Of a DNA stretch of 42,308 nucleotides, positions 2,179-20,284 are shown piece by piece (position 1 is the first letter of the stretch; each line of letters begins with the position of its first letter). The notes below the pieces were generated by a model. The model searched no databases, was not told the DNA's origin, and saw only the letters and a list, made by a program, of their open reading frames with translations. The DNA is from Thermodesulfovibrio sp. (GTDB lineage Bacteria > Nitrospirota > Thermodesulfovibrionia > Thermodesulfovibrionales > UBA6898), in the NCBI GenBank assembly GCA_013824615.1, contig PNOC01000029.1, positions 1 to 42,308 of the forward strand, read 5' to 3'. The position numbers and the translations under genes were made by a program.

Positions 2179-2264
2179 ACATAGAGACAGAGAAGGTCCA
2201 CGTGATGGAAGGGAGGTGAGAGGACGCTTAACCGGAGTTAGACAAAAGATGTTTGGAGGCAGCG

Positions 2265-2777
2265 ATGGGATTATTTGATTTTATCAGGAAGCTTCTGGCC
2301 GTAGAGCCGGAAAAAACTACGAGGGAGGAATTAAAAATGGCAGAAAAGATGACAGTTGAACAGGTCAATGCGTACATGAAAGAGAAGTGCGGGTTTGTCC
2401 CGAGAATGTTCCAGATCATCAACACGGTTACCCCTGATCCGGGCAGGACATTTGCCGATTTCTATGAAAGCATCTTCGGCGATGGTGCGATCTCCAGAAA
2501 AAATAAGGAACTTATGTTTATGTCAGGCGGCGTTGCCTACTGCTCACCGCGCTGCATCATCCATGCTCTCCCGGCTGTCAACGCCGGTGCAACAGACGGC
2601 GAGATCTTCGAGGCTGCTGCTGTCGGTATGATCCTGGCAGGTTTTGTACCGGGCGGCCCTGGCATCCCCTATGCATTTGAATATGCCCTCAAGTGCATCG
2701 ATATGGTAGCCAAGTACCGTAAGGGCGAGGCCTGGGAGTATCTGCCGGCTCCGAAGTTTGATCACGGCGTATATTAA
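2265..2777 (+). CDS. Carboxymuconolactone-decarboxylase (AhpD-like) family protein with CxxxC motif
   Basis: A 170-residue alpha-helical CMD-family protein. The core ELMFMSGGVAYCSPRC, a His three residues on, then NAGATDGEIFEA is the AhpD-like active-site region, but the usual CxxC is CxxxC (CSPRC). Such proteins act as thiol peroxidase/reductase partners or decarboxylase-like enzymes; the reaction here is unknown. Two starts are each preceded by a good ribosome site: ATG 2265 (GGAGG 5 bases before) and in-frame ATG 2337 (GGGAGGAATTAAAA). The shorter form begins at the normal CMD N-terminus (MAEKMTVEQ); the 24 extra residues form a short amphipathic stretch. It sits between the first UroD-type methyltransferase and mtrH, suggesting a redox or accessory role in the pathway. 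Confidence 0.8.
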   Translation: MGLFDFIRKLLAVEPEKTTREELKMAEKMTVEQVNAYMKEKCGFVPRMFQIINTVTPDPGRTFADFYESIFGDGAISRKNKELMFMSGGVAYCSPRCIIHALPAVNAGATDGEIFEAAAVGMILAGFVPGGPGIPYAFEYALKCIDMVAKYRKGEAWEYLPAPKFDHGVY

Positions 2778-2791
2778 AGATTAAAAAAAAG

Positions 2792-2824
2792 GGGCAGCCC
2801 GTTCTTGCGGAACGTGGACTGCCC
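2792..2824 (+). other. Intercistronic hairpin before mtrH-like gene
   Basis: GGGCAG (2792-2797) pairs with CTGCCC (2819-2824), and inside it CGTTC (2800-2804) pairs with GAACG (2810-2814) around a 5-nt loop. There is no T-run after it, so it is more likely an mRNA processing or stability element, or a partial attenuator, than a full terminator. It lies in the 97-base gap between the CMD-family and MtrH-type genes. Confidence 0.5.
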
Positions 2825-2874
2825 TGAGGTTAACGACAACCTATTTTACCATAATCTCTATAAAAGGAGTCAGA

Positions 2875-3834
2875 ATGTTTAAATTTGCAAAGGAACAGAA
2901 AGTATTCAACATTGGCGGCATAAAAGTCGGCGGGCAGCCTGGGGAAAACCCTCCGCTGATGATTGCATCGCTGTTCCATAACAAGGACAGTGTCACCAAG
3001 ACAGACCGCAAGGGCAACTTTGACCGCGAAAGAACAAAAGAAATGCTGAAGCAGATGGAGCAGATTTCAGCTGCCACCGGTGTGCCCGGCATGGTCGCCA
3101 TGGTCGCCAACACCCCTGACGAGGCAAAGCTTTACATAGATTTTTATCTTGAAAACACTTCCATGCCTTTCGGCATCGATATGTGGGTTGCTGAGCAGAG
3201 GGCCAAGGCGACGGAATATGTATCGACACTCGGCGTGCAGGACAAGTTTCTCTATAACAGTATCACCCCCTGGGACAAGGATATTCCCGGACAGGTAAAG
3301 CGGCTGAAGGACCTCGGGATAAAGCATGTGGTCATACAGGCCTTTGACGATCAGGACCAGTCACCGGCAGGCAGAATGAAGTCTCTTGAAGCAATACTTG
3401 CCCAGGGAGCAGACTCGTTTGAATCGATTATCGTCGATACCTCAGTCATGAATATGCCCTCAACGTCCTTTTCCCTGGTGGCCAACCGGATGATCAAGGA
3501 AAAGCATGGACTCCCCTGCGGCGGGGCCTACTCAAACGGCACCCATATGTGGAAGGAATGCAAGGAGGCCTGGGGCCTCGACGGGTTCAAGGCCATGGAT
3601 GCCGTGGTGCAGGGCATGTCATCGGCGCTGTGGTCAGACTTTAATTTCAGCGGGCCTGCCATTACAGCCCCCCGGGTCTTCCCGGCCGTGGCAAGTGCCA
3701 ACATACTGCTGTCAACCCTTGTCTATGAGGAAACAGGAGTTATCTATGACTCACCTGAACTGCCGATACGGAAGATGTTTGGTGACTTCATTACCAAGCT
3801 TACCGAAGGCGGCTCAAGGAAAAAAGGCAAATAA
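2875..3834 (+). CDS. mtrH: MtrH-type tetrahydropterin:corrinoid methyltransferase
   Basis: A 319-residue protein of the MtrH family, with the characteristic opening MFKFAKEQKVFNIGGIKVGG, then QPGENPPLMIAS, GNFDRE and a TIM-barrel body. In methanogens MtrH moves methyl between tetrahydromethanopterin and the corrinoid of MtrA. In bacterial and archaeal O-demethylase systems (OdmD, MtvA, MtoA) the homolog moves methyl from the corrinoid protein to tetrahydrofolate/tetrahydropterin. No other Mtr subunit is present, so this is the soluble, stand-alone type. Ribosome site AAAGGAG lies 6-12 bases before the ATG. It is flanked by the two UroD-type methyltransferases, with the corrinoid protein two genes on. 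Direction of methyl flow is not decided by sequence. Confidence 0.9.
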   Translation: MFKFAKEQKVFNIGGIKVGGQPGENPPLMIASLFHNKDSVTKTDRKGNFDRERTKEMLKQMEQISAATGVPGMVAMVANTPDEAKLYIDFYLENTSMPFGIDMWVAEQRAKATEYVSTLGVQDKFLYNSITPWDKDIPGQVKRLKDLGIKHVVIQAFDDQDQSPAGRMKSLEAILAQGADSFESIIVDTSVMNMPSTSFSLVANRMIKEKHGLPCGGAYSNGTHMWKECKEAWGLDGFKAMDAVVQGMSSALWSDFNFSGPAITAPRVFPAVASANILLSTLVYEETGVIYDSPELPIRKMFGDFITKLTEGGSRKKGK

Positions 3835-3860
3835 TAATCCTGAAAGGAGAATCACCTTTA

Positions 3861-4889
3861 ATGAATTCACGTGAAAGAGTCTTAGGTCTTTTCAAAAAAG
3901 AAAAGATAGACAGGGTGCCCTGCTTCAGCGGCATGGGCAACATAACAGAGGCCGGCATTAATAAGCTCGGCTACAAATTCGCCGGCATTCATCTTGATGC
4001 CAAGCAGATGGCGGAAACGGCAGCAACCACCTTCAAACTTTATGGGTACGAATGCGGCGTTATGCCGGTAGACCTCTGCGTCGAGGCGGAGGCCATGGGC
4101 TGCCAGATCAATGTCTATCCTCACGCTGAGGGCATACTCTACCCGACAATCAAGGAAAAACTTATCCATAACGAAGCAGAAATGGATACCATTACCCTCC
4201 CGGCAAACATGGGAGAACTGGGCCGCGTGCCGATGATGCGCGAGGCGATTAAACTGCTGAAAGCCGATATCGGCAAGGATGTCGCTATCGGCTCCTATGT
4301 CCTCGGGCCCTTCACCCTGGCCGGTCAGATCATGGAACTGAACGACCTGCTGAAGCTTTCCTTCAAGAAGGCTGACAAAGTCGCCAAACTGCTCGATCTT
4401 ATGGCAGATGCGATTATCATCGTGGCCAAGGAATTTGAAAAGGCAGGCGTCGACTACATAACGGTCAGGGAGATGGGCGCCACCAGCGACGTGCTGAGTC
4501 CGCGGGTATTCAAGAACCTGATCGCCCCTCCGCTTAAGAAGGTGATCAGCCAGATTTCGGTCCCCTCGGTGCTGCATGTCTGCGGCAAGACAAACGACAT
4601 TGTCACCACGATGGTGGAAACCGGACCGACCGCGATAAGCGTGGAACAGAAGAACGACGTTGCAGAAACCAGGAAGAAACTGGGTGACGACGCCCTTATC
4701 TTCGGAAACATGGATGCCTATAATGTCCTTGTTTCCGGAAGTGAGGAGCTCGTCCGCTCGACCGTAAGGAAATGCATAGACGATGGGGTGAATGCCGTAT
4801 GGCCCGGCTGCGATATCTGGCCGTCAGTCCCCCCGGCAAATATGTTAGCAATGATGGATGAAACAAATAAATATGGAGGTAAAAAGTAA
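3861..4889 (+). CDS. UroD-fold corrinoid methyltransferase (MtaA/MtoB type), copy 2
   Basis: A 342-residue second UroD-fold methyltransferase. It carries the same zinc triad as copy 1: H239-x-C241 in LHVCGK and C317 in PGCDIWP, but differs through most of its length, so the two are not recent duplicates and may act on different substrates (for example a methyl donor on one side and coenzyme M on the other). AAAGGAGAATCACC precedes the ATG. Its stop overlaps the start of the corrinoid-protein gene by one base (TAATG), so the two are translationally coupled; this makes copy 2 the probable direct partner of that corrinoid protein. Family assignment is firm; whether it is MtaA-like or MtoB-like is open. 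Confidence 0.85.
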   Translation: MNSRERVLGLFKKEKIDRVPCFSGMGNITEAGINKLGYKFAGIHLDAKQMAETAATTFKLYGYECGVMPVDLCVEAEAMGCQINVYPHAEGILYPTIKEKLIHNEAEMDTITLPANMGELGRVPMMREAIKLLKADIGKDVAIGSYVLGPFTLAGQIMELNDLLKLSFKKADKVAKLLDLMADAIIIVAKEFEKAGVDYITVREMGATSDVLSPRVFKNLIAPPLKKVISQISVPSVLHVCGKTNDIVTTMVETGPTAISVEQKNDVAETRKKLGDDALIFGNMDAYNVLVSGSEELVRSTVRKCIDDGVNAVWPGCDIWPSVPPANMLAMMDETNKYGGKK

Positions 4890-5575
4890 TGGCAGATGAG
4901 GCACGCAAAAAGGAAATTTACGAGAAGCTCAGAAACGGTGTTATCCAGTATGATGAAGATGCCTGCAGAGAAGGGGCCCAGGAAGCACTGGACGCAGGAC
5001 TCGACGCCAACGAGGCGATCTTTGACGGCCTTGTTTCAGGCATGGAAGAAGTCGGCAGACTCTTTGAGGCACAGGAGTATTTCGTGCCCGAGATCCTGAT
5101 GTGCGCTGACGCACTCTATGCCGGACTGGACATCCTCAAGCCGCACTGCAAGCAGATGGACCTCGGAGTCAGAGGATCCGTGGTCATCGGTACCGTCGAA
5201 GGCGACGTCCATGACATAGGCAAAAACCTTGTCAAGATGATGTTCGATGTTGCCGGTTTTCATGTTTATGACCTTGGCAGGGACGTTCCCCTCGACAAGT
5301 TTGTTGATGAGCAGCTCAAGACCGACTCTGAACTGGTCTGCCTGTCAGCCATGATGACCACCTCAATGGTCGGCATGCCGACGGTCATCGAAAAGATCAA
5401 GGCAAAGAACCCCGACTGCATGATCATGATCGGTGGAGCACCTACCTCAAAGGACCTCGCTGACAAATGGGGCGCCGACGGTTATGCTGAAGATGCCAGC
5501 AACGCACTCAAAGAAGCAATCAAGATGGTAGGCTTTCTCAAAAAACTGAGAGACGAGAAGCTTAACAAGAAATAG
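4889..5575 (+). CDS. Methyltransferase corrinoid protein (MtaC/MtoC type)
   Basis: A 228-residue cobalamin-binding protein. Residues 1-90 are the helical B12-cap domain, and residues 95-225 the Rossmann B12-binding domain with the base-off/His-on motif GDVHDIGKN (D106, H108, G111), followed by the SAMMTTSM and IGGAP segments of that fold. It carries the methyl group as methyl-Co(III) between the methyltransferases encoded just upstream. Co(I) becomes accidentally oxidised to Co(II), which explains the RACE activase two genes downstream. The start ATG overlaps the stop of the upstream gene. Length and domain order match MtaC, MtbC and MttC-type proteins. Confidence 0.93.
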   Translation: MADEARKKEIYEKLRNGVIQYDEDACREGAQEALDAGLDANEAIFDGLVSGMEEVGRLFEAQEYFVPEILMCADALYAGLDILKPHCKQMDLGVRGSVVIGTVEGDVHDIGKNLVKMMFDVAGFHVYDLGRDVPLDKFVDEQLKTDSELVCLSAMMTTSMVGMPTVIEKIKAKNPDCMIMIGGAPTSKDLADKWGADGYAEDASNALKEAIKMVGFLKKLRDEKLNKK

Positions 5576-5582
5576 GCAACGG

Positions 5583-6230
5583 GTGGATGCAGAACCGCTG
5601 AAGCGTTTTCTGAAAACCGAAGGCGCAACACTTGTCGGCATCGGTGACGTTACGGCGGCGCTCTCAAGCGAGATTATCCATCTCAGGCGGGGCATTGCAA
5701 TTGCGGTCAACCGCAACCTTAACAGGGAAACGGTTGACCAGCTCATCCGCCTGCAGGCCCTGGCAGAGGGATGGCTGAGGGCAAAGGGGTACCGGAGTCT
5801 TTCGATCCCTGCTGACTCAGACAGAAAAAAAGACAAAATGATCACGAAGCTGTACAAGCTCTTCTGTCACAAGACGGCAGCGACGTGTTCAGGTCTGGGT
5901 TGGGTGGGCAAGAACGGGCTGCTCATAAACCGGGAGTACGGTTCGAAGCTTTCGTGGGCAACCGTCCTTACCAATGCGCCCTTCAGGGCAGATGCCCCGA
6001 CCTCACAGTCCGAATGCGGAGACTGTGACCTCTGTGTCAGACACTGCCCCTCGGGGGCGGTAAAAGGCGAACACTGGACGCTGGCTGATCCCCTCAAGGA
6101 GATCGTTTCATATGAAAAGTGTCGCGCGCTGAAGACCAGGAGGATCTCGCATAGCAGCAAGCCGAACTGCGGGTTCTGCATAACCGTCTGCCCTTATTCA
6201 CGTAATGGAAACAATCACGGGACAACATAA
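5583..6230 (+). CDS. QueG-like double [4Fe-4S] protein, corrin-pathway associated
   Basis: A 215-residue protein with a region like epoxyqueuosine reductase (HKTAATCSGLGWVGKNGLLI, residues 97-116) and two [4Fe-4S] binding sets: C145, C148, C151, C155-P and C180, C196, C199, C203-P. QueG and reductive dehalogenases use cobalamin with such clusters. This version is shorter than QueG (about 350 residues) and lacks its N-terminal half, so it is probably an electron donor or corrinoid-handling ferredoxin rather than a tRNA enzyme. The start is GTG 5583, 8 bases after the corrinoid-protein stop, with no good ribosome site; coupling to the upstream gene is likely. It may feed electrons to RACE for corrinoid reduction; that is inference from context. 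Confidence 0.75.
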   Translation: MDAEPLKRFLKTEGATLVGIGDVTAALSSEIIHLRRGIAIAVNRNLNRETVDQLIRLQALAEGWLRAKGYRSLSIPADSDRKKDKMITKLYKLFCHKTAATCSGLGWVGKNGLLINREYGSKLSWATVLTNAPFRADAPTSQSECGDCDLCVRHCPSGAVKGEHWTLADPLKEIVSYEKCRALKTRRISHSSKPNCGFCITVCPYSRNGNNHGTT

Positions 6231-6251
6231 CTGAAAATACATAGGGGTATC

Positions 6252-6304
6252 ATTCCGGCCCGTCCGGAATCGGCCTTTAATAATGATCCCGGACTAACCG
6301 GGAT
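6252..6304 (+). other. Tandem hairpins before the RACE gene
   Basis: Two adjacent perfect 7-bp stem-loops: ATTCCGG (6252-6258) with CCGGAAT (6264-6270), loop CCCGT; and ATCCCGG (6286-6292) with CCGGGAT (6298-6304), loop ACTAA. The stems resemble each other (ATYCCGG), suggesting a duplicated element. No T-run follows. The location between the QueG-like gene and RACE, 32 bases before the RACE start, points to mRNA processing or partial read-through control. Confidence 0.5.
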
Positions 6305-6335
6305 GACGAATGATACATATCAGGAGGATTGCTAT

Positions 6336-8330
6336 ATGAGCCGTAAATTCAAGGTAATATTCCAGCCGGCAGGCCGGCGTGGAGAAATAGAAGAAGGAAC
6401 CACCATACTTAAGGCGGCCCAGCAGCTGGGGGTTGACCTCGAAGCACTCTGCGGCGACAAAAAGGTCTGCGGCAAATGCAAGGTCAGGATAGAAGAAGGT
6501 TATTCAGAAAAAGACAATCTCGAATCTGGCATGGCTCATATCACGCCGCTGGAGCCGACTGCCGAGGAACTGAAGCATATCAAGCCGGAAGACGGCCCGG
6601 GTATCAGACTGGCCTGCTCCTGCGAAATACATGGGGACCTGAAGGTATTCGTACCGGAGAGGTCACGCGCCGGAAAGCAGGTTGTCAGAAAAGCAGCCGG
6701 AGAACTGACAATCGCCCTCGATCCTGCAGTAAAAAAGTATCCGCTGACGATGACTCCCCCCACCCTGCACGATATGACCACCGGTGACTACGAACGGGTC
6801 GTCAAGGCGATGGAGGATATCTACGGCATTAAAGACCTGAAATTTGATTTTGAGGTGCTGCTGCAGCTGCAGGACGCCCTCCGAAACGGCAACTGGACCA
6901 TCACGCTTACGGTCTGGCAGGGCAAAGAGATCATTAAGGTTGAGGCCGGGCATGTAGACGTATGTTACGGACTGGCCGTGGACGTCGGGACGACCACTTG
7001 CGTCGGGTACCTCTGCGATCTCAGCACAGGCAAGGTCATTAATACCGAATCCATGATGAACCCGCAGGTGCCGTATGGAGAGGACGTCATGTCGCGTATT
7101 ACCTATGCCATGACGAATCCTGAAGGCCTCAAGACCATGCAGAATGCGATCATCACAGGCCTTAACGAGATCATCAACAAGGTTTGTGCCGAAGTCCGGA
7201 AAGATGGCGCTAATCCGGGTTATGCAATCGATGACCTGACGATCGTCTTCAACACGGCGATGCATCACATATTCCTCGGGCTTAACCCCATTTATATCGG
7301 TCGTTCTCCGTTTATCCCGGCTGTTCAGAAATCGCTGGATATCAAGGCGCGCGACCTGGGGCTGAAGATCAACCAGGGGTCCTTTATCCACGTTCTGCCG
7401 ATCGAGGCAGGGTTTGTCGGTGCGGATAATGTAGGCGTTCTGATCGCAAGGGAACAATACTTCCAGGACGACATGGTGCTCGTCATCGATATCGGTACCA
7501 ATGGCGAACTGCTCCTTGGCAACAAAGACCGTGTATGTTCAACCTCCTGCGCAACCGGGCCTGCCTTCGAAGGGGCGCAGATCAAATTCGGCATGAGGGC
7601 CGCACCTGGTGCTATCGAAAAGGTAAGGATTGACCCGATCACCAAGGAACCCCAGTACAAGGTTATCGGCAAGGCAGACTGGCACACCCATATTGAAGGC
7701 AAGATCAATGCAAAGGGTATCTGCGGCTCCGCAATTATCGATGTGATCGCCGAGATGTTCAAGGCAGGCATTATCGACAAGACCGGGAAGTTCGTACCTG
7801 ACGCAAAGACCAATAGGGTCAGAATGGACGCAGCAGACGGCAAGCCGGAATATGTCCTTGCCTGGGCTGAAGAGACCTCCATCAATCAGGATGTCACCGT
7901 CACCCAAGGCGATGTCAGGGCCCTGCAGCTTGCAAAGGGTGCGCTCTATGCCGGTGTAAAGCTTATGATGCAGAAGATGGGTATCAAGAATATTGACCGT
8001 GTAGAGCTCGCAGGAGCCTTCGGCAGCCATATCGACCGGGAGGCGTCGCTCTGTCTCGGCCTGTTCCCTGATGTGCCTATCGAAAAGGTTGTTGTCGTCG
8101 GAAATGCGGCTGGTGACGGAGCGCGGATGACGCTTCTGAACAAGAGCAAGCGGATAGAGGCAGACGAACGCGCCCGCTGGGTCGAGTTCGTCGAGATCGC
8201 GACAGAGCCGACGTTCGAGAAGGAATTCATGCAGGCGATGCATATACCGCATATGAAGGACAAGTTCCCGAACCTCAAGACCATGTTGGAGGAGCAGAAA
8301 GCTCCCATAGCCTCCAGCATCAAGGGATAA
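6336..8330 (+). CDS. Reductive activator of corrinoid enzymes (RACE; DUF4445/ASKHA family)
   Basis: A 664-residue RACE protein. Residues 1-105 form a plant-type [2Fe-2S] ferredoxin domain (C39, C45, C48 and C94); after a linker, the DUF4445 ASKHA ATPase domain begins with YGLAVDVGTTT (about 211-221) and carries VIDIGTNGEL and the late GAFGSHID and VVVGNAAGDGA motifs. RACE proteins use ATP and low-potential electrons to reduce Co(II) back to active Co(I) in the corrinoid protein, here the one at 4889. ATG 6336 is preferred over in-frame ATG 6303 because TCAGGAGGATT precedes it and the ferredoxin fold starts directly. MtoD and the O-demethylase activating enzymes are the nearest functional equivalents. 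Confidence 0.93.
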   Translation: MSRKFKVIFQPAGRRGEIEEGTTILKAAQQLGVDLEALCGDKKVCGKCKVRIEEGYSEKDNLESGMAHITPLEPTAEELKHIKPEDGPGIRLACSCEIHGDLKVFVPERSRAGKQVVRKAAGELTIALDPAVKKYPLTMTPPTLHDMTTGDYERVVKAMEDIYGIKDLKFDFEVLLQLQDALRNGNWTITLTVWQGKEIIKVEAGHVDVCYGLAVDVGTTTCVGYLCDLSTGKVINTESMMNPQVPYGEDVMSRITYAMTNPEGLKTMQNAIITGLNEIINKVCAEVRKDGANPGYAIDDLTIVFNTAMHHIFLGLNPIYIGRSPFIPAVQKSLDIKARDLGLKINQGSFIHVLPIEAGFVGADNVGVLIAREQYFQDDMVLVIDIGTNGELLLGNKDRVCSTSCATGPAFEGAQIKFGMRAAPGAIEKVRIDPITKEPQYKVIGKADWHTHIEGKINAKGICGSAIIDVIAEMFKAGIIDKTGKFVPDAKTNRVRMDAADGKPEYVLAWAEETSINQDVTVTQGDVRALQLAKGALYAGVKLMMQKMGIKNIDRVELAGAFGSHIDREASLCLGLFPDVPIEKVVVVGNAAGDGARMTLLNKSKRIEADERARWVEFVEIATEPTFEKEFMQAMHIPHMKDKFPNLKTMLEEQKAPIASSIKG

Positions 8331-8344
8331 GGCCGAGCCGTCAC

Positions 8345-8686
8345 ATGACTAAAATAAGGATAAACCCCGGGGCCTGCGGCTTTGAAGCAATGGTGGAGCT
8401 GAAACAGAAGGACAAAAATACTGTTACGGTCAGCATCTCTTCCGAGTGCAAAATGGTCGAAAAGCTTGGCCAGGAACTGAACGAACTGGCCATGATGGAC
8501 GCCTTCAGGCATCTCCTGGGAAATCCTGTGTATGTAAAGGGGGCAGCATGCCTGAAGCATGCTGCCTGCCCTGTTCCAAGCGGCATTCTGAAGGCGCTCG
8601 AGGTAGAAGCAGGTTTTAATGTACCAAAAGATGTAACCATGACCTTCATAAAGGAGAACTCAGAAACAGAAGAGAAGCAGGAATGA
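8345..8686 (+). CDS. Small four-cysteine protein of the methyltransferase cluster, function unknown
   Basis: A 113-residue soluble protein starting MTKIRINPGACGFEA. It has four cysteines (C11, C35, C69, C75); C69 and C75 lie in GAACLKHAACPVPSG. The spacing could bind a metal or Fe-S cluster, but no known motif is matched with confidence. The start is 14 bases after the RACE stop, so it probably belongs to the same transcript, and the C-terminus is charged and glutamate-rich. I do not recognise the family securely. The context suggests a small accessory protein of corrinoid methyl transfer. Confidence 0.65.
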   Translation: MTKIRINPGACGFEAMVELKQKDKNTVTVSISSECKMVEKLGQELNELAMMDAFRHLLGNPVYVKGAACLKHAACPVPSGILKALEVEAGFNVPKDVTMTFIKENSETEEKQE

Positions 8687-8714
8687 TCCGGTTTCAGACG
8701 AATAACGGAACTAT

Positions 8715-8742
8715 TAAAGAAATTACTCTTTTATACCGATTA
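8715..8742 (+). promoter_or_regulatory. Possible sigma-28 (FliA) promoter for the chemoreceptor gene
   Basis: TAAA at 8715-8718 and ACCGATTA at 8735-8742 resemble the FliA consensus TAAA-N15-GCCGATAA, with a 16-base gap. Chemoreceptor genes are commonly FliA-dependent, and the MCP start is 66 bases downstream. The match is imperfect. Confidence 0.35.
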
Positions 8743-8751
8743 TTTAGTACA

Positions 8752-8781
8752 ATTAGGCGTACGGGGTACGCTTCCGCTAAT
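8752..8781 (+). other. Long hairpin in the leader of the chemoreceptor gene
   Basis: ATTAG (8752-8756) pairs with CTAAT (8777-8781), and inside it GCGTAC (8757-8762) pairs perfectly with GTACGC (8766-8771) around GGG. It lies between the putative FliA promoter and the ribosome site AAAGGGAG. It could be the 3' end of the methyltransferase transcript or a leader structure; no T-run follows. Confidence 0.45.
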
Positions 8782-8807
8782 ACTAAAATAAAAGGGAGTA
8801 ATAGACC

Positions 8808-10358
8808 ATGTCCGTCCTTCAGGTAATTCTCATCGTACTTATAATACTTTCTGTTGGTTTCAATTTTTTTCTGTTTTTCAGGCCCCGTACCGGCGACTTT
8901 AATAAATTTTTGCATACGTTTTTTGCAAAAAATATGGCTGGCCGTATAAGCCTTGCAAACACCCTTGAAAAAACCGGGGTGGGCGACCAGATCCAAAAAG
9001 AAAGCATATCCTTCCTGAATGAATTCATCCTGAAACTCAGACAGATACTCAGAAACAGCTTTTCGATAGGACATAACCTCACAACGACCTCAGACTCAAT
9101 GAAAAACGATGCCTCAAGACTGCTTGAAATGGCGGACAGTACCAGCATGCAGTCGACCCAGGTCGCTACTGCCATGGAGGAGATGAGCACCACCATCAGC
9201 GAGATAGCCAGAAATGCCTCTACCGTGGCAACCTCAAGCGTCTCAACCCTTGATAATGCGAGCCAGGCGGAACGTGACATAAACGAGAATGTACGGAGCA
9301 TTGAGATACTCTCAGGCAACGTATCGAACTGGGCTGAAACAAACAGGGCACTCTCTCAGGCAACCCATAAAATAGATGAGATCATCCTGGTCATCAACGA
9401 TATCGCCGACCAGACAAACCTGCTTGCCCTGAACGCGGCGATCGAGGCGGCCCGGGCAGGTGAACAGGGACGCGGCTTTGCGGTTGTTGCCGACGAGGTG
9501 AGGAAGCTTGCAGACAAGACCGGGAAGGCTACCAAAGAAATAGGCGGGATGATCCGGGATGTAAAGACCAAGGCCGACAACTCCCTCGGCACCATGGATT
9601 CGACGCTCTCCGGGGTGACCGAAAGCATACAGAGATCAAGAAGCGCTGAAGAGTCGCTGGTAAAAATCGTATCCGAAGTGCGGCAGATCACGGACATGAT
9701 CCAGCAGATAGCAACAGCATCAGAGGAACAGTCCAAGGTCTCGGAAGATGTTGTTGCGAATATGGAGAAGGTGGCCAGCTATGCAAACGAAACCAAGAGT
9801 CTCGCTCAGCACATAGCAACCTCAGGAGACTCTGTTGCCTCTCTGGCGATAAACCTGTACAGCAATCTCTGCGGCCTGAAAAAGGACCCCCTTGACGAGG
9901 CCATGGAGGGCCTGCTTATATCGTGTTCGTCAACTTTTCAATCAATGCTTGAAGAAGCAGTCAAAGCGGGAAAGGTTACACACAATGCCCTGTTTGATGA
10001 CAATTACGTCAAGTCCGGCGAAGAGGGAAAACTTTCCACGGGGGGCACGAGGTTCTTTGAGGACTCGGTACTTGCGCTGCTGAAACAATGGGTCCAGACA
10101 GACAAAAAGATAATTTATGTCGTAGCCATGGACAGAAACGGCTATATGCCGACACATCTTATGCCGGCCCGCTCAGGACTCAAGATGAGCGACCCTATTT
10201 CGCTCAATGGCGCCCGGAGTGAAAAACTGATCGGTCAGGCTTTCAGGCGGCCCATAGCTGCGGGCGGAGAACTGGTCATTGATATCGCGCATCCGGTTCT
10301 GCCGGGCGGCCGCCATTGGGGATGCCTGAGAATCGGATATATGCCGGATATGTCGTGA
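8808..10358 (+). CDS. Methyl-accepting chemotaxis protein with C-terminal cytoplasmic sensor
   Basis: A 516-residue chemoreceptor. It has a single N-terminal membrane helix (residues 2-25) and no periplasmic domain. Residues 45-350 are the coiled-coil signalling region, with the hairpin tip [20 protein letters not shown] followed by [20 protein letters not shown] that contacts CheA/CheW. After residue 365 comes a C-terminal domain ending in [17 protein letters not shown] and [17 protein letters not shown]; the DRNGYxPTH element is found in C-terminal sensor domains of some MCPs. The receptor therefore probably senses an intracellular or redox/metabolic signal. Ribosome site AAAGGGAG precedes the ATG. 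Its place between the methyltransferase cluster and the CoM operon suggests taxis linked to this metabolism; that link is inference. Confidence 0.9.
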
Positions 10359-10385
10359 TATATGGCCACAGTGCCCGGTAAGTGA

Positions 10386-11072
10386 ATGTATCAGCTGCTG
10401 GCTGTTGCTGCCTATATTGTTTATACTGTCTTCAGCCTGCGCCTTTTGTGGCACTTTCTGATATGGGTCAGAGCATCCCATGCCAACAGGGGGGTCTTTC
10501 GCTTTAAACTCAGTACTTCATTCAACACGGTGCTGCTCATGGCAATTGACCTTATTTCATTCAGAAGAGTCATGATCGCCAGCGGTCCGCTCTGGGTTGG
10601 CTCTCTGATCTTTCATCTGTCGTTCCTGCTGGTGTCCCTGGGGCACCTCAGATACTTTACCGACCCCGTCCCTGCCTGCATACAGGACCTGCAGCCCCTT
10701 GGGCTCATTGCGGGGTACCTCCTGCCGGCGTCTGTCATCTGGCTGTTGTCGATCCGGACCCTGTCAGTTAAACACCGGTATCTGACCTGGCACAACTATC
10801 TGATTCTTGGACTGGTACTCTGCATCAGCACGGGGGGACTGCTGCTCAGGACTGTCTTCAGGACCGACCTGGTTGCAATAAAAAGTTTCGCCTACGGGCT
10901 GCTCACACTGCAGCCCGCTCTGCTGCAGGACGCTTACCTCTTTGCCCTGCATTTCGCCCTGGTACTGATCCTGGTCCTGATACTCCCGTCGCATATTTTT
11001 TCTGCTCCTCTGATCATCATGGAGGCCAGAAGGCGCGAGCAGGAACTGAGGATGGTAATGCATGACCGCTGA
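10386..11072 (+). CDS. HdrE/NarI-like membrane cytochrome b subunit
   Basis: A 228-residue integral membrane protein with about five helices and the fold of NarI, DsrM and HdrE. Histidines inside helices that could hold two b hemes are seen in HLSFLLVSLGHLRYF (about residue 79) and in ALHFALVLILVL with a following PSHIF near the C-terminus. It would pass electrons between the membrane quinone pool and the Fe-S subunit encoded next. Its length fits HdrE, and the stop overlaps the start of the HdrD-like gene by 11 bases. Without the next genes it could equally be called DsrM-like; the partner and the CoM genes make an HdrE role the favoured reading. Confidence 0.8.
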   Translation: MYQLLAVAAYIVYTVFSLRLLWHFLIWVRASHANRGVFRFKLSTSFNTVLLMAIDLISFRRVMIASGPLWVGSLIFHLSFLLVSLGHLRYFTDPVPACIQDLQPLGLIAGYLLPASVIWLLSIRTLSVKHRYLTWHNYLILGLVLCISTGGLLLRTVFRTDLVAIKSFAYGLLTLQPALLQDAYLFALHFALVLILVLILPSHIFSAPLIIMEARRREQELRMVMHDR

Positions 11073-12300
11073 TAAGACAGAAGACCAGACTGCAGGATCC
11101 TTTACCGAAAACCTCTCGATGCTCCAGATGATAGAGCTGGACGCCTGTACTCAGTGCAGAGAATGTCTCAATGTTTGTCCTGTTCAGGAGGTGACCGGGA
11201 ACCCGGCGGTCTCTCCGCCGGAGAAGATAAGAATGTTCCGGGAGTTCATAAAAGCCACGGCCGGCCTTAAGTCCCGCTTTCTGAAACCAAAGGAAATCGA
11301 CCGCAAACTGCTCGAGGACTTCACAAAGGCGGTATTCGAATGCACCACCTGCGGTGCCTGCGGCAAGCACTGCACCGTGGGTATCTTTACGCAGAGGCTC
11401 TGGCCATTCCTGCGCAAGGAGATGATCTCCCGCGGGCTGGTTGATTTCAAGATCCTGACTGATATGCCCGAAGCAATCAGAAATACCGGCAACCCCTATA
11501 ACCTGCCGGCAGAAGACCGGTATCACCCGTGGCTTCCTGCGGGCATCACCATAGCAGAACAGTCGGAACTTGCCTATTATGCCGGCTGCACCGGCGCCTA
11601 TACTGCTCAGCCCATGGTTAAAGGAGACGTCAGCGTCCTTAATGCCATCGGCGACCCCTTCACCATGCTGAAAGAGGAAGATGAGGTCTGCTGCGGCTTC
11701 CCCCTGTTTATTTCAGGACAGCATGATATGCTGGAGGACCTTACCAGAAGACTGGTCACCTCCTATCAGGCCAAGGGAGTAAAGACCCTGATCTGCTCGT
11801 GCCCCTGCTGTGTGAATATTATGACCCGCGAGTGGCCGGTATTTTATGGGAAAGAACTGCCCTTCAGAATAATGCATATTACCCAGTTCGTTCTGAATGC
11901 CTTAAAACAGGGGAAGATTCGGATAACAGCCGGGCTGAAGACAAGGTTGATCTATCACGATCCCTGCTACCTCAGCAGAGGGGTAGGAGTCATCGAAGAG
12001 CCGAGGGAAATCTTGAGGAGCATCCCGGGAGTCCAACTCCTGGAATTCGAGCGCCACGGGCTTAACTCGCGCTGCTGCGGGGCCGGAGGCGCTGTCCGGA
12101 AGGTCTATCATGAAAATGCCATGGCCATGGGCAGGCTTGCCATTGACGAAGCCGTTGCCAAAAAAGCCGACCGCCTCGTCCTGAGCTGCCCGGCCTGCTA
12201 CGGCAAGGTGAATGAGGCCATGGTTGGTCATGACAAACAGATCCCCATCGTCGATATCATGGAACTTATAGCAGGACTACTGGAAAGGAAACAGATATGA
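11062..12300 (+). CDS. HdrD-like [4Fe-4S]/CCG-domain heterodisulfide reductase subunit
   Basis: A 412-residue protein with the HdrD layout. Two [4Fe-4S] sets come first (C29, C32, C35, C39-P and C93, C96, C99, C103). Two CCG domains follow: YYAGCTG, EVCCGFPLF, CSCPCC; and HDPCYLSRG, SRCCGAGGAV, SCPACY. CCG cysteines in HdrB/HdrD bind the non-cubane clusters that split the CoM-S-S-CoB disulfide; related proteins (DsrK, HmcF, TmcB, GlpC-type) use other substrates. Length is close to methanogen HdrD. It overlaps the cytochrome gene upstream by 11 bases and cysteate synthase downstream by 4 (ATGA). The family is certain; disulfide-of-coenzyme-M as substrate is inferred from operon context. Confidence 0.85.
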   Translation: MTADKTEDQTAGSFTENLSMLQMIELDACTQCRECLNVCPVQEVTGNPAVSPPEKIRMFREFIKATAGLKSRFLKPKEIDRKLLEDFTKAVFECTTCGACGKHCTVGIFTQRLWPFLRKEMISRGLVDFKILTDMPEAIRNTGNPYNLPAEDRYHPWLPAGITIAEQSELAYYAGCTGAYTAQPMVKGDVSVLNAIGDPFTMLKEEDEVCCGFPLFISGQHDMLEDLTRRLVTSYQAKGVKTLICSCPCCVNIMTREWPVFYGKELPFRIMHITQFVLNALKQGKIRITAGLKTRLIYHDPCYLSRGVGVIEEPREILRSIPGVQLLEFERHGLNSRCCGAGGAVRKVYHENAMAMGRLAIDEAVAKKADRLVLSCPACYGKVNEAMVGHDKQIPIVDIMELIAGLLERKQI

Positions 12301-13550
12301 GCCACTTTACCATCCGCTGCCGAAAATGCGGCAAAGAACTTAAAGACGTCTATTGTGCCTTCTGTGAACATTGCGACAATGCCCTGCTCCTGACCGAGTA
12401 TAGCGATCCGCTCAGGAATGACCTCGGCGAAGGTATCTGGAAATTCAACTGGCTTCCGGTCCACACGCCTTCCTTCAGTCAGCCCGGCACCGTCGTGTAC
12501 CGGTCCGAATGGCTCGCAAGGCATTGCGGTCTCGACAACCTGTATATTGCCTTTAATGGGTACTGGCCTGAACGCGGCGCATTTCTTCACACCTGCACCT
12601 TCAAGGAATTTGAGGCTGCGGTAGTTCTGCAGAATGCCAGGGAGAACGGCGTGAAAGGCCTGATCGTGGCCTCTGCCGGCAATACAGCCCGTGCATTTGC
12701 CCATCTCTCTATCGTCTCGAAATTCCCTGTGCTGATAGTCGTGCCAATGATGTGCCTGATGGAAATGTGGTATCTCGAAAGCTCCTCGATGGTGCCGACT
12801 CTGGCTGTCGGGGATGGAGACTATTCCGACGCCATTGACGTGGCCAAAAGAATTGCAGCCATATCCGGCTTCCCGTTTGAGGGGGGCGTTCGCAATGTAG
12901 CGAAAAGAGACGGGCTTGGCTCAACCATTCTGGAGGCGGTCTCGGTCATCGGCCGCATGCCTGATCACTACTTCCAGGCTGTCGGCAGCGGAACCGGCGG
13001 AATAGGCGTATGGGAGATGTGCGAGCGGCTCCTGCGGGACGGCCGTTTTGGAGACAGATTGCCCAGACTTCATCTGGCGCAGAATAGTCCTTTTGTCCCG
13101 ATGGTCCATGCGTGGGAACAGGGCAGCAGGAAGCTCTTTGACGAGGACCTGAGGCCTGAGCTTATCGGCCAGATTTCGACGCGGGTACTCTCAACCCGCT
13201 ATCCTGCCTACTCGATCCAGGGCGGAGTCTTTGATGCCCTCACCGCCACCAGCGGAAAAATGTATGGAGTCACCAACCGGGAAGTATTTGAGTCGATGGA
13301 AATATTCAGCAACCTCGAAGGCGTTGATATCGTTGCAGCCTCCGGCGTTGCGGTGGGAGCCCTTATACAGGCCGCCCGGTCCGGTAAGATATCGCCCAGA
13401 GAAACGGTGCTTCTGAATATCACCGGCGGCGGCGAGGTAATACTCGGGAGAGAGAGAAAAAGGTACAACGTGGAACCCATGTTCCTTTCAAAGAAAATCA
13501 CCGACAAGGAGATAGATGAGACCCTATGTTCAATCCTGAAGCCGAACTGA
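12297..13550 (+). CDS. Cysteate synthase (PLP-dependent, coenzyme M biosynthesis)
   Basis: A 417-residue fold-type II PLP enzyme. It makes L-cysteate from O-phosphoserine and sulfite, the first step of the Methanosarcina-type coenzyme M pathway. Visible features are an N-terminal Cys-rich ribbon (C8, C11, C20, C23, C26), LYIAFNGYWPERGAF and TCTFKEFEA with the likely PLP lysine K103, the phosphate loop ASAGNTARAF (125-134), and the very characteristic stretch RNVAKRDGLGS then DHYFQAVGSGTGGIGVWE and LPRLHLAQN. These distinguish it from ordinary threonine synthase, its ancestor. The ATGA overlap with the hdrD-like gene and the 25-base overlap with comDE show tight coupling. Presence in a bacterial genome is unusual. 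Confidence 0.88.
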   Translation: MSHFTIRCRKCGKELKDVYCAFCEHCDNALLLTEYSDPLRNDLGEGIWKFNWLPVHTPSFSQPGTVVYRSEWLARHCGLDNLYIAFNGYWPERGAFLHTCTFKEFEAAVVLQNARENGVKGLIVASAGNTARAFAHLSIVSKFPVLIVVPMMCLMEMWYLESSSMVPTLAVGDGDYSDAIDVAKRIAAISGFPFEGGVRNVAKRDGLGSTILEAVSVIGRMPDHYFQAVGSGTGGIGVWEMCERLLRDGRFGDRLPRLHLAQNSPFVPMVHAWEQGSRKLFDEDLRPELIGQISTRVLSTRYPAYSIQGGVFDALTATSGKMYGVTNREVFESMEIFSNLEGVDIVAASGVAVGALIQAARSGKISPRETVLLNITGGGEVILGRERKRYNVEPMFLSKKITDKEIDETLCSILKPN

Positions 13551-14674
13551 TCAGCATTATGCAGGAAGCAGGGACGGATTTCACCGCCTCCCTCCCCTGC
13601 GAAAAGATAAAGACCCTGCTGGAGATGCTGGGCGATCGCTTCCCGCACCTGCCGCTGACACGCGAAGAAGAGGGGGTTGGTATATGCGCCGGCGCAGCAC
13701 TTGCGGGAAAGCATCCGGCCATGTTCGTACAGAGCTCCGGCATCGGAAATATGCTGAACGCCCTGCTCTCCCTGACCCAGTTCTATGAACTGCCTCTCGC
13801 CCTCTTCATCAGTCAGAGAGGCATTTACAAGGAACGGATCGCCGCTCAACTGCCGGTGGGGCAGAGGCTGCCCGGAATGCTCAGAGGCGCTGGTATCGGC
13901 TATTCCGTAATAGGATCAGCAGCCGACTTTAAACTCGTGAGAAAGAAACTTGCAGAGGTCTACAGGAAAAATATTATTCATGCCTTTCTGCTCAGCCCCG
14001 CGATCTGGGAGGGGTCGGAGGCAAAACAGGCGGCAAGCGGCAGGCTGCAGGCTCCGATCTGCATACAGCAAGCTGCAGGAAGCAAGCGGCAAGCGGCAGG
14101 CTATAAACCACAGGCGCCGCGTTATACCCGCTATGAAATACTAGAGATCATCGCCCCCTGGCTCAAAGGGAAGGCTGTGGTCTGCAATCTGGGGATACCC
14201 TCGAAGGAGCTGTACGCGATTCTGAATCAGCCTTCCAATTTTTACATGCTCGGCAGCATGGGTATGGTGACACCCATCGGCCTCGGCATTAGTTTAACCT
14301 CAGACAAGGAAGTAGTGGTGATTGATGGGGACGGCAGTATTCTGATGAACCCCGGTACGCTTGCCACGGTCGCCTTCAGCAACCCGAAGAACCTGACTAT
14401 CATCGGGATCGACAACAGCTCCTACGGGTCGACCGGGAACCAGCAGACGCTGACCGGGAAGTGCGTTGATCTTGCACTGGTGGCAGAGGGCTTCGGAATG
14501 CATAACTCAATAAAGGCCGCAACAAAAAAGGAGCTTATCGCTGCCATGAAACTTAAAACCAGCGGACCAAAGTTCATCCACGCCCTTTCCGTATCCGGAA
14601 ACAGCGATGCCCCGAATATCCCCATCGGGCATATTGAGATAAAGGAACAGGTATGGGCCTTTCTGGCGAAGTAG
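13526..14674 (+). CDS. comDE: Fused sulfopyruvate decarboxylase ComDE
   Basis: A 382-residue TPP enzyme joining both halves of sulfopyruvate decarboxylase, which makes sulfoacetaldehyde for coenzyme M. Residues 1-163 are the alpha (ComD, PYR) half, with the cofactor Glu in TREEEGVGICAGAALAGK (E49). Residues 200-382 are the beta (ComE, PP) half, with CNLGIPSKELYA, FYMLGSMGM, the TPP/Mg motif GDGSILMN (D269, N275) and DNSSYGSTGNQ. The join (about 166-198) is a low-complexity Ala/Gln/Gly stretch encoded by 17-base direct repeats, see the repeat entry. Phosphonopyruvate decarboxylase is the close alternative, but adjacency to cysteate synthase decides for ComDE. The fused form is known from Methanosarcinales. 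Confidence 0.88.
   Translation: MFNPEAELISIMQEAGTDFTASLPCEKIKTLLEMLGDRFPHLPLTREEEGVGICAGAALAGKHPAMFVQSSGIGNMLNALLSLTQFYELPLALFISQRGIYKERIAAQLPVGQRLPGMLRGAGIGYSVIGSAADFKLVRKKLAEVYRKNIIHAFLLSPAIWEGSEAKQAASGRLQAPICIQQAAGSKRQAAGYKPQAPRYTRYEILEIIAPWLKGKAVVCNLGIPSKELYAILNQPSNFYMLGSMGMVTPIGLGISLTSDKEVVVIDGDGSILMNPGTLATVAFSNPKNLTIIGIDNSSYGSTGNQQTLTGKCVDLALVAEGFGMHNSIKAATKKELIAAMKLKTSGPKFIHALSVSGNSDAPNIPIGHIEIKEQVWAFLAK
14030..14102 (+). repeat. 17-bp direct repeats in the ComD-ComE linker
   Basis: GCGGCAAGCGGCAGGCT occurs at 14030-14046 and again at 14086-14102, 56 bases apart. Because 56 is not a multiple of three the copies are read in different frames, so the repetition is at DNA level. Flanking sequence is made of further CAGGCT/AAGCGGC/GCTGCAGG pieces. 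It behaves like a small repetitive element inserted without breaking the gene exactly at the junction of the two enzyme domains. Confidence 0.65.
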
Positions 14675-18457: not shown

Positions 18458-19027
18458 CTAGTCTATAAAAAGATATCCGTATGACCCGATACGACCGTCC
18501 CTCACCGGCCATGCATATACGGTGGAACTGGCTGTCTTGGTGCCATAGCAGGCAAATGAGGTGACCAATCCTTCCAGATTAGTGCACCAGGCCCGCGACT
18601 GGTCCGCCACAAGGGTCGTTGCCGACCAATAGAAAGATGACTGTACATTGTTAAAAACATTTCCCTGTGCCCAAACTGCAACCCCAGAGCCATCTGTCAG
18701 CCTTGGGTCCATGCCCTGTTTTTTGGCACTTGCGGTCATCGCCATCCATTCCGTCTCGGTAGGCAACCGCCAGTCTCCTGCAGATGAACCATCATTCAAG
18801 CTGCAGATGCCCTGTCCAAGCCCTGCTGCCCAATTCATCGCATCATACCAGGACATTGCACCCGCGCAATTGGCGTTCTTAAGCCATATCAGCCCACCCC
18901 GGCAGTCTGTGACCGTGCCGTCGTTGTTGTCCTCATATCTGCCGCCATCGTTGCAGTCGGCTGCATATCCTGAAACGCACAGAGATAAAAAAAGTATGCT
19001 CGCCAGCCCTATAGACCATGTTTTCAT
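18458..19027 (-). CDS. DUF1566 (Lcl C-terminal-like) secreted protein, copy 1
   Basis: A 189-residue exported protein with a signal peptide (1-22, ending SGYAA). The DUF1566 domain follows: CNDGGRYEDNNDGTVTDC, GLIWLKNANC, GDWRLPTETEWMAM, NNVQSSFYWSATT and WPVRDGRIGSYGYL. DUF1566 domains resemble formylglycine-enzyme/C-lectin-like folds and occur in surface or periplasmic proteins of unknown function; paired cysteines suggest disulfides. ATG 19027 follows GGGAG. It is the most 3' of three tandem paralogs sharing the same architecture. Confidence 0.85.
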   Translation of the reverse strand: MKTWSIGLASILFLSLCVSGYAADCNDGGRYEDNNDGTVTDCRGGLIWLKNANCAGAMSWYDAMNWAAGLGQGICSLNDGSSAGDWRLPTETEWMAMTASAKKQGMDPRLTDGSGVAVWAQGNVFNNVQSSFYWSATTLVADQSRAWCTNLEGLVTSFACYGTKTASSTVYAWPVRDGRIGSYGYLFID

Positions 19028-19065
19028 ATAAACTCCCTTTAAGTACCGTAATCCGTCAGATGGGA

Positions 19066-19659
19066 TCAGTGGATATGCAGACTGCCGAAAGACCCGATCT
19101 GTCCGGCACGCACTGGCCATACAGGCAACAGATTATCTTTGTTAACACTGTATACTTTGCCATCACCCATAAAAACACTCCACGCCTGAGTCGGCGTGGA
19201 CGGGTTCGTCGTAGTCGACCAGTAAAAATCAGATTGTACCAGACTAAAGGTATTGCCGCCTGATCCTGTCCACTGGCTGGAGCCTGAACCGTCAGTCAGC
19301 GCAGGATTCGAAAAGCCAAGTTTTCTGGCATTTTCTACCATCGCCATCCATTCTGTTTTTGTGGGCAGTCTCCATGCCCCATTCGAAGACCCGTCGGACA
19401 ACCCGCAGATCCCATGGCCCAGGCCTGCCACCCATTTCACGGCTTCATCCCAGTAAAGTGTGCCGGCACTGTTCCCGATACCGCCGGATGTCTCATTGCA
19501 ACTGGCGTTCTTCAGCCATACCAGACCGGTCCTGCAGTCAGTGACCGTTCCGTCATTGTTGTCGTCATACCTTCCACCACCGTTGCATTCCGCCGCATAC
19601 CCGGCGCTACACCACAGCAATACCAGCACGAGAGAAAACAGACATAATTTTGAAAACAT
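19066..19659 (-). CDS. DUF1566 secreted protein, copy 2
   Basis: A 197-residue paralog of the genes on either side: signal peptide (1-22, ending AGYAA), CNGGGRYDDNNDGTVTDC, GLVWLKNASC, GAWRLPTKTEWMAM, SLVQSDFYWSTTT and WPVRAGQIGSFGSLHI. GGGGGACGGT precedes ATG 19659. It lacks the cysteine pair found near the end of copy 1 and carries an insertion (NETSGGIGNSAGTL) after the third cysteine, also present in another form in copy 3. It is likely secreted to the periplasm or cell surface; function unknown. Confidence 0.85.
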   Translation of the reverse strand: MFSKLCLFSLVLVLLWCSAGYAAECNGGGRYDDNNDGTVTDCRTGLVWLKNASCNETSGGIGNSAGTLYWDEAVKWVAGLGHGICGLSDGSSNGAWRLPTKTEWMAMVENARKLGFSNPALTDGSGSSQWTGSGGNTFSLVQSDFYWSTTTNPSTPTQAWSVFMGDGKVYSVNKDNLLPVWPVRAGQIGSFGSLHIH

Positions 19660-19693
19660 ACCGTCCCCCTTTTCAAAGATAACAGGCATCAGC

Positions 19694-20284
19694 TCATTCA
19701 ATAAACAGATAGCCGAACGACCCGACCTGACCGCCGCGCACCGGCCAGACGTGGAGGGTACTGTCACTGGCCACTGTATCTATAAAACCATTGCTTAAAC
19801 TGATGTACCATGCAAAATTCGCAAAGTCCGCGCGCGGAGTCTGAGACCAATAAACGGAACTCTGGACATTGTTAAAGGCATTTCCATTTGTGGTCCACTT
19901 CGAAGTCCCGAGCGTATCAGTAAGCACGGGGTTCTGAAATACCTGTCTTTTTGCGCTCGCTATCATCGCCATCCATTCTGTTTTTGTCGGTAATCTCCAA
20001 TCACCGGCAGCAGATCCGTCAGACAAACTGCAGAGGCCGTCTCCCAGCCCCGCAGCCCATTTCAAGGCGCTCGTCCAGGTCATAAACCCATTAACACCCG
20101 GAAGAACACCTCCTGAGGCGGTCGTACAGTTTGCATTCTGAAGCCATATCAGGCCGGTCCGGCAGTCGGTGACGGTCCCATTAGAATTGTCTTCGTAGCG
20201 GTCACCGGTGTTGCAGTCAGCAGAGCAGAGTGTCGTCAGCAGAAAGATTATCAACATAGTTACGGGTATGGTCCGCAGAATCAT
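19694..20284 (-). CDS. DUF1566 secreted protein, copy 3
   Basis: A 196-residue first member of the tandem trio, with a signal peptide (1-22) followed by CNTGDRYEDNSNGTVTDC, GLIWLQNANC, GDWRLPTKTEWMAM, NNVQSSVYWSQTP and WPVRGGQVGSFGYLFIE. GAGGAAAGGGG lies 6-16 bases before ATG 20284. The three genes are separated by only 34-38 bases and read the same way, so they are probably one transcript born by tandem duplication; divergence is spread over the middle and the C-terminal cysteines. No function can be given. Confidence 0.85.
   Translation of the reverse strand: MILRTIPVTMLIIFLLTTLCSADCNTGDRYEDNSNGTVTDCRTGLIWLQNANCTTASGGVLPGVNGFMTWTSALKWAAGLGDGLCSLSDGSAAGDWRLPTKTEWMAMIASAKRQVFQNPVLTDTLGTSKWTTNGNAFNNVQSSVYWSQTPRADFANFAWYISLSNGFIDTVASDSTLHVWPVRGGQVGSFGYLFIE

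Follow-up and report, generated by a model that had tools for sequence, protein, structure and literature searches.

Why does a bacterium carry, side by side, the two signature enzymes of the route by which Methanosarcinales make coenzyme M (CoM), and what might it use them for? The question is raised by a contig of Thermodesulfovibrio sp. (class Thermodesulfovibrionia, phylum Nitrospirota; NCBI GenBank assembly GCA_013824615.1, contig PNOC01000029.1, forward strand, positions 1 to 42,308; this whole stretch of 42,308 nucleotides is called the window below), for which a first-pass annotation had proposed a cysteate synthase and a fused ComDE-type sulfopyruvate decarboxylase in a bacterial genome. 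Profile scores, a phylogenetic tree and the recurrence of the genes in the class bear this proposal out. The pair closes an operon on the + strand (1138-14674), in which it is preceded by eleven genes (1138-12300) that belong with it and were overlooked in that annotation, and the locus probably serves, in a bacterium, the synthesis and use of CoM without methyl-CoM reductase (MCR).

Identity and occurrence of the cysteate synthase-ComDE pair

The two open reading frames (12297-13550 and 13526-14674, both on the + strand and overlapping by 25 bases) exist as first described, and the motifs quoted for them are present in their translations. The first encodes a protein of 417 amino acids, which reached 460.5 bits with the NCBIfam equivalog model of cysteate synthase, TIGR03844 (cut-off 324.9), and stayed far under the cut-off of every threonine synthase profile; its nearest solved structure is the cysteate synthase PDB 9k3c (E 9e-95), threonine synthases appearing from E 8e-12. 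The second (382 amino acids), the identity of which was judged by profile scores and not by a tree, passed the sulfopyruvate decarboxylase alpha model (TIGR03845, 174.3 bits; cut-off 147.95), narrowly missed the beta model (TIGR03846, 219.7 vs. 221.5 bits, 1.8 bits short), and clearly failed the phosphonopyruvate decarboxylase model (195.8 vs. 312.5 bits). Among seven relatives, the alpha cut-off was passed by all, the beta cut-off by four, and that of phosphonopyruvate decarboxylase by none. The two misidentifications against which the annotation had warned were excluded, threonine synthase for the first protein by profile scores and tree, and phosphonopyruvate decarboxylase for the second by profile scores. 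The linker between the two domains of ComDE derives from a repeat (an imperfect DNA repeat at 14020-14140 of the window, with a 17-base unit present twice).

The cysteate synthase tree comprised 67 rows (43 of the 80 named loci introduced below, 15 of the 40 loci taken from the class, that of the window, six threonine synthases and two divergent enzymes). Cysteate synthases of the class and of two further bacteria (L121 and L124) form one clade (support 100/100), other bacterial cysteate synthases form a separate clade (100/100), and the threonine synthases lie far off. The cysteate synthase of the window is not nested in Methanosarcinales and belongs to its own deep clade; how this clade branches relative to Hydrothermarchaeota and to the remaining sequences is not resolved by the tree. 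An archaeal source of the gene is plausible, with no donor identified. Divergent pyridoxal phosphate enzymes were seen at G161:C8 (L189) and G179:C54 (L188); with the cysteate synthase model they score 125-135 bits, which puts them between cysteate synthase and threonine synthases.

Cysteate synthase exceeds its cut-off in 71 of the 230 genomes of the class, and the same gene order recurs across many of them, including same-genus relatives (L041, L051 and L061). Of 40 class loci, 39 have ComDE, 38 cysteate synthase, 36 HdrD, 28 DUF6951, 27 each RACo, MtaA and cytochrome b (a cytochrome b of another type occurs in 7), 24 MtrH, 23 the Fe-S protein, 22 the corrinoid protein and 18 the AhpD-like protein, all of which are lower bounds because contig ends and crude gene picking lose some genes; FolD lies within the operon in 7 of these loci. 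SsuABC-type sulfonate transporter genes occur in the operon of two genomes (L233 of G180 and L071 of G182). In G180 the operon includes ComDE, but cysteate synthase is missing from its usual place after HdrD, and the transporter genes are placed between RACo and DUF6951, as if sulfonate uptake stood in place of sulfonate synthesis.

A scan of named genomes for cysteate synthase gave 583 confirmed candidates, of which the best 80 were used. Among these 80, ComDE is present in 23 of the 26 Nitrospirota or other bacterial loci of the class clade and was seen in none of the 11 bacterial loci outside this clade (Cyanobacteriota, Bacteroidota, Aminicenantes, Spirochaetales and Gemmatimonadales). The annotation needs correction in that cysteate synthase alone is not a specific sign of CoM, since Bacteroidota, Cyanobacteriota and others carry one near which no ComDE was seen.

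The last step of the pathway and an SsuA-fold candidate protein

MCR alpha was detected in none of the 71 cysteate-synthase-positive genomes of the class (the controls M. jannaschii and M. acetivorans were both found), and an MCR hidden in these genomes was rejected. COG1900 (PF01837), the family of ComF, was also found in 0 of the 71 with all candidates scored, and an overlooked ComF or other COG1900 paralogue was likewise rejected; the ComF negative rests on this search. The MMP16 model was passed by one of the 230 class genomes (G181, which has methyltransferase genes and no cysteate synthase) in a scan that scored at most seven candidates per genome. Next to the MMP16 gene of G181 (L238, G181:C95) are another MMP16-like gene, which is shorter, one for an HdrD-like protein, and an apparent tripartite tricarboxylate transporter. 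Because ComF/MMP16 was found in 0 of 71 and 1 of 230 genomes, the locus was not filed as a complete archaeal pathway. The interpretation given in the annotation is supported for both enzymes and needs two further corrections: the gene is not nested within Methanosarcinales, and part of the Methanosarcina pathway was not found. In M. acetivorans, where MA3297-MA3299 are cysteate synthase, ComDE and ComF, the main CoM synthase was shown to be ComF (PMC12068725).

In Hydrothermarchaeota, a gene for an SsuA/TauA-fold protein of 301-303 amino acids directly follows ComDE, with an 11-base overlap, in all five loci (the fifth, L149, assigned by tree), and class loci as well as a Methanoregula have homologues (40-48% identity) close to the pair. 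The fold is shared with SsuA/TauA and with the enzymes Thi5, MqnD, MqnA and DszB (predicted local distance difference test score of the model 86.2); against TauA and SsuA chains the model gave Z 27.6-28.7 and a root-mean-square deviation of 2.8-2.9 over 280-283 residues. In two alignments, one of 15 and one of 12 rows, H7, H13, C74, H79, H121, H216, C257, H300 and H305 are invariant throughout.

The protein was found in 75 of the 230 class genomes (E 1e-40), and its distribution follows that of cysteate synthase: 68 genomes have both, 3 cysteate synthase alone, 7 the SsuA-fold protein alone, and 152 neither (Fisher p 3.9e-46, a value that overstates the association because genomes are not independent). 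Within the 11 mixed genera, 47 of 52 genomes are concordant, a figure reached in 0 of 20,000 within-genus shuffles. Linkage alone does not explain the co-occurrence, because 20 of the 68 copies lie within 10 kb of cysteate synthase and the other 48 do not. The copy of the window genome is on another contig (G000:C50, L281:5966-6727, - strand), where it is cut by the contig end and covers profile positions from 59 on.

Of the 80 named loci, 50 were searched for both the SsuA-fold protein and MMP16. They come from 41 archaea and 8 other bacteria, the remaining one being L124; L170 was kept, and the Nitrospirota loci and L121, L137, L159, L160, L163 and L167 were left out. Among the 41 archaea with cysteate synthase, 19 have the SsuA-fold protein alone, 18 MMP16 alone, 2 both and 2 neither (p 1.7e-7, uncorrected for relatedness; presence required E 1e-80 or better for the protein and an over-cut-off score for MMP16, and weaker matches of the protein superfamily at E 1e-25 to 1e-32 were counted as absent). 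The two with neither are G244, with 1.2 Mb of sequence, and G262, with an MMP16 fragment. None of the 8 other bacteria has the SsuA-fold protein or an MMP16 match over cut-off (in 5, a COG1900-like match falls short of it), and L124 (G241), a bacterium with the operon-type pair, has the SsuA-fold protein together with a COG1900 gene under the MMP16 cut-off.

All nine Methanoperedens genomes carry the SsuA-fold protein (L139, L141, L143, L146, L148, L150, L158, L161 and L169, with L139 and L143 assigned to the genus by the cysteate synthase tree), and none has an MMP16 match at E 1e-30; in M. nitroreducens MCR is present and COG1900 was not found. M. nitroreducens, which needs CoM, appears to lack ComF and has the SsuA-fold protein. 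The part of PMC4683180 that concerns a Methanoperedens-like genome states ComDEF for it, which disagrees with the absence of COG1900 and MMP16 here. The SsuA-fold protein seems to replace ComF in archaea. On the strength of this correlation it is the foremost candidate for a second CoM synthase.

CoM could also be made by another, unrecognised enzyme, with the SsuA-fold protein acting as a carrier or sensor of CoM or sulfonates, or as an assembly factor. By sequence family and fold it belongs with the sulfonate-binding proteins, and the operon of the two genomes with sulfonate transporter genes encodes a transport binding protein from this superfamily. On the other side, the protein scores 86.3 and 93.4 bits, far under the SsuA cut-off of 163.5, it has nine invariant His and Cys residues, no leader peptide is apparent (the N-terminus begins at the first strand; no signal-peptide program was run), and no permease or ATPase directly adjoins the gene in Hydrothermarchaeota. 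We consider such a role somewhat unlikely and prefer the SsuA-fold protein as the candidate enzyme of the last step.

Proposed methyl transfer and disulfide chemistry in the operon

The operon begins with two MtaA-like genes and their presumed partners. MtaA1 (1138-2178, +), an MtaA/CmuA-like methyltransferase with the uroporphyrinogen decarboxylase fold and a zinc motif HxC...C, obtained 192.6 bits with TIGR01463 (cut-off 235.4), and MtaA2 (3861-4889, +), an MtaA-like methylcobamide:thiol methyltransferase, passed NF004889 with 248.9 bits (cut-off 244) and aligns to 4ay7 over 4-333. The residues HxC...C, which we take to be zinc binders, are invariant in 40 of 40 rows. Between the two genes lie a carboxymuconolactone decarboxylase/AhpD-like protein that recurs in the operon (2253-2777, +; PF02627, 27.5 bits) and an MtrH-family methyl-tetrahydrofolate:corrinoid methyltransferase (2875-3834, +; NF002142, 322.1 bits, over the cut-off of 287). 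MtaA2 is followed by a methyltransferase cognate corrinoid protein with DxHxxG at residue 106 (4889-5575, +; TIGR02370, 205.3 bits, cut-off 215.3), a likewise recurrent 4Fe-4S protein with a QueG/reductive-dehalogenase-like C-terminus (5583-6230, +), a RACo-type reductive activator of corrinoid proteins (6303-8330, +; PF14574/PF17651/PF17650), and a DUF6951 protein (8345-8686, +; PF22263). The window genome has a second methyltransferase cluster (L235, G000:C26:23001-43000) with paralogues of the MtaA-like protein (48%), the corrinoid protein (53%) and RACo (55%).

Directly before the pair are an HdrE/DsrM/NarI-like cytochrome b subunit (10386-11072, +; NF038037, 70.5 bits, cut-off 300), with H77, H87, H189 and H203 in 28 of 28 rows, and an HdrD-like protein (11062-12300, +; PF02754), the end of which reaches four bases into cysteate synthase (start 12297). 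The latter has two 4Fe-4S ferredoxin sites, the eight Cys of which are invariant in 37 rows together with two complete CCG motifs, and its best NCBIfam relative is TfrB (176.8 vs. 385 bits).

These genes allow a pathway to be proposed. Cysteate synthase would form cysteate from phosphoserine and sulfite and ComDE would convert sulfopyruvate to sulfoacetaldehyde, both steps having sequence support, and a general aminotransferase may join the two. Sulfoacetaldehyde might then be turned into CoM by the cytosolic SsuA/TauA-fold protein with its invariant Cys and His, instead of ComF. Methyl groups would be shuttled between tetrahydrofolate and CoM by the enzyme of the MtrH family together with the corrinoid protein, kept active by RACo, and the MtaA-like zinc enzymes. 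This set would correspond, in soluble form, to the Mtr complex of archaea. HdrD and cytochrome b may reduce the CoM disulfide with quinol, or oxidise the thiol.

It might be that CoM serves only as a redox thiol for HdrD and cytochrome b, and that the adjacent methyltransferases work on tetrahydrofolate and not on CoM. HdrD is the most frequent companion of cysteate synthase and ComDE, and the MtaA-like proteins are divergent. However, MtaA2 tracks cysteate synthase (5 of 5 positive genomes tested vs. 3 of 53 negative ones), as a folate-only methyltransferase would have no need to, and an MtrH for folate is already present in the operon; we regard a purely redox role as unlikely.

Still less probable is that the sulfoacetaldehyde formed by the pair goes into a different end product, such as taurine, isethionate or some other sulfonate, and that no CoM is made at all. 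The finding of ComF/COG1900 in none of the 71 genomes would agree with it, as would the use of cysteate synthase for other sulfonates (sulfonolipids) in other bacteria. Against this stand the operon partners, which come from families handling CoM or heterodisulfides, and the position of the window gene outside the clade of other bacterial cysteate synthases; the absence of ComF moreover does not mean the absence of CoM, because M. nitroreducens has MCR and shows no COG1900. Archaeal contamination or a chimeric contig, also considered in the first-pass annotation, has a negligible probability given a bacterial contig with even base composition along the window, the presence of the gene in almost a third of the class genomes, the gene order kept in the three same-genus relatives, and a clade of its own; nothing was found in its favour.

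The reading of the locus as an operon for making and using CoM is itself weakened by several points. CoM, its last enzyme and the methyl sink are all inferred, ComF was found in none of the positive genomes, and we know of no reaction that consumes methyl-CoM here. The f13 loci L048 and L063 have the cysteate synthase-ComDE pair without methyltransferase genes, and no ComDE was seen after cysteate synthase in G161 (L041/L107). The SsuA-fold protein is missing from three cysteate-synthase-positive genomes (G003, G030 and G035) and present in seven without an over-cut-off cysteate synthase (G034 and G056 of these have partial or split matches, and G180 has the operon), two archaea (G232 and G267) have both it and ComF, and its p values are inflated as said above. 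MtaA2 is under the MtaA and MtbA equivalog cut-offs (238.6 vs. 400 and 160.3 vs. 600 bits), and MtaA1 and MtaA2 are just ~25-31% identical to the Methanosarcina enzymes, so that CoM as their thiol is not proven; since these CoM-specific cut-offs were missed, we describe the two enzymes as working like MtaA and did not file them as MtaA. Bacterial MtaA homologues can use tetrahydrofolate.

More broadly, and tentatively, we suggest as a serious possibility that many bacteria of the class and the MCR-less Hydrothermarchaeota run a methane-independent methyl and electron metabolism based on CoM, that CoM is finished by a new SsuA-fold enzyme family (a non-homologous replacement of ComF that would also serve Methanoperedens), and that the operon encodes a soluble methyl-folate:CoM methyltransferase in coupling with a quinone-linked CoM disulfide reductase.

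The operon also contains a methyl-accepting chemotaxis receptor-like gene (8808-10358, +; identified from the appearance of the sequence, not by family search), which is seen in the operon of L051 and L073 as well and is possibly a sensor tied to the pathway. Elsewhere in the window, three tandem paralogous genes occupy 18458-20284 (with an Lcl_C domain in the first), and an Rfam scan of the window gave no matches.

Comparison with known systems

The type 2 (Methanosarcina) pathway is described in passages of PMC12068725 as cysteate synthase, an aminotransferase, ComDE and ComF/MMP16. The operon shares with it a cysteate synthase directly followed by a fused ComDE, and differs from it in its bacterial host, in the lack of any ComF/COG1900 found, in another candidate for the last step, and in the absence of a detected MCR. 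Sulfonolipid-type cysteate synthases (Bacteroidota; PDB 9k3c) belong to the same enzyme family but to the separate clade, in the 11 loci of which no ComDE was seen. In Xanthobacter, the CoM pathway serves epoxide metabolism. The pathway of Xanthobacter autotrophicus Py2 is named in PMC12068725 as the sole described bacterial one, with a phosphoenolpyruvate route distinct from those of archaea; the likeness to it is the (here predicted) presence of CoM in a bacterium, and none of its genes was seen in the operon (no genome search for them was made). The literature searched, the coverage of which largely left out subscription journals and preprints, gave no description of the operon, nor of the SsuA-fold protein as an enzyme of CoM; we do not claim that none has been published.

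With the Mtr complex and HdrDE of methanogens, the operon would share the transfer of methyl groups from a pterin to CoM and a membrane-linked disulfide chemistry. Unlike in these systems, the partners of MtrH are MtaA-like zinc enzymes and a corrinoid protein that is soluble, HdrD and cytochrome b are divergent, and no MCR was found. An archaeal-type CoM route would be common in a bacterial class and linked, within an operon, to the transfer of methyl groups and to disulfide chemistry, in genomes where no methane-forming enzyme was detected; by this operon, the roles of CoM may be wider than known. The distribution of the SsuA-fold protein also proposes which protein finishes CoM where ComF was not found, including the methane-oxidising Methanoperedens.

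A further comparison is with Hydrothermarchaeota, which share related genes for MtaA, the corrinoid protein, RACo, MtrH, HdrD and cysteate synthase-ComDE, there in separate clusters (Candidatus Pyrohabitans has MtaA1-, AhpD- and HdrD-like genes, and a series of MtaA2, corrinoid protein, RACo and MtrH genes on one contig), and in a quick tree MtaA1 and MtaA2 each group with their Hydrothermarchaeota counterparts. MCR was found in none of five Hydrothermarchaeota genomes, in agreement with PMC6775978, which reports mtrH as present and mcr as absent and suggests an alternate fate of methyl-CoM, its passages on the subject containing no description of CoM synthesis or of the SsuA-fold protein. These genomes were annotated in PMC9635834, the relevant section of which does not mention the module. 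A related module in these MCR-less archaea makes the alternate fate of methyl-CoM directly testable.

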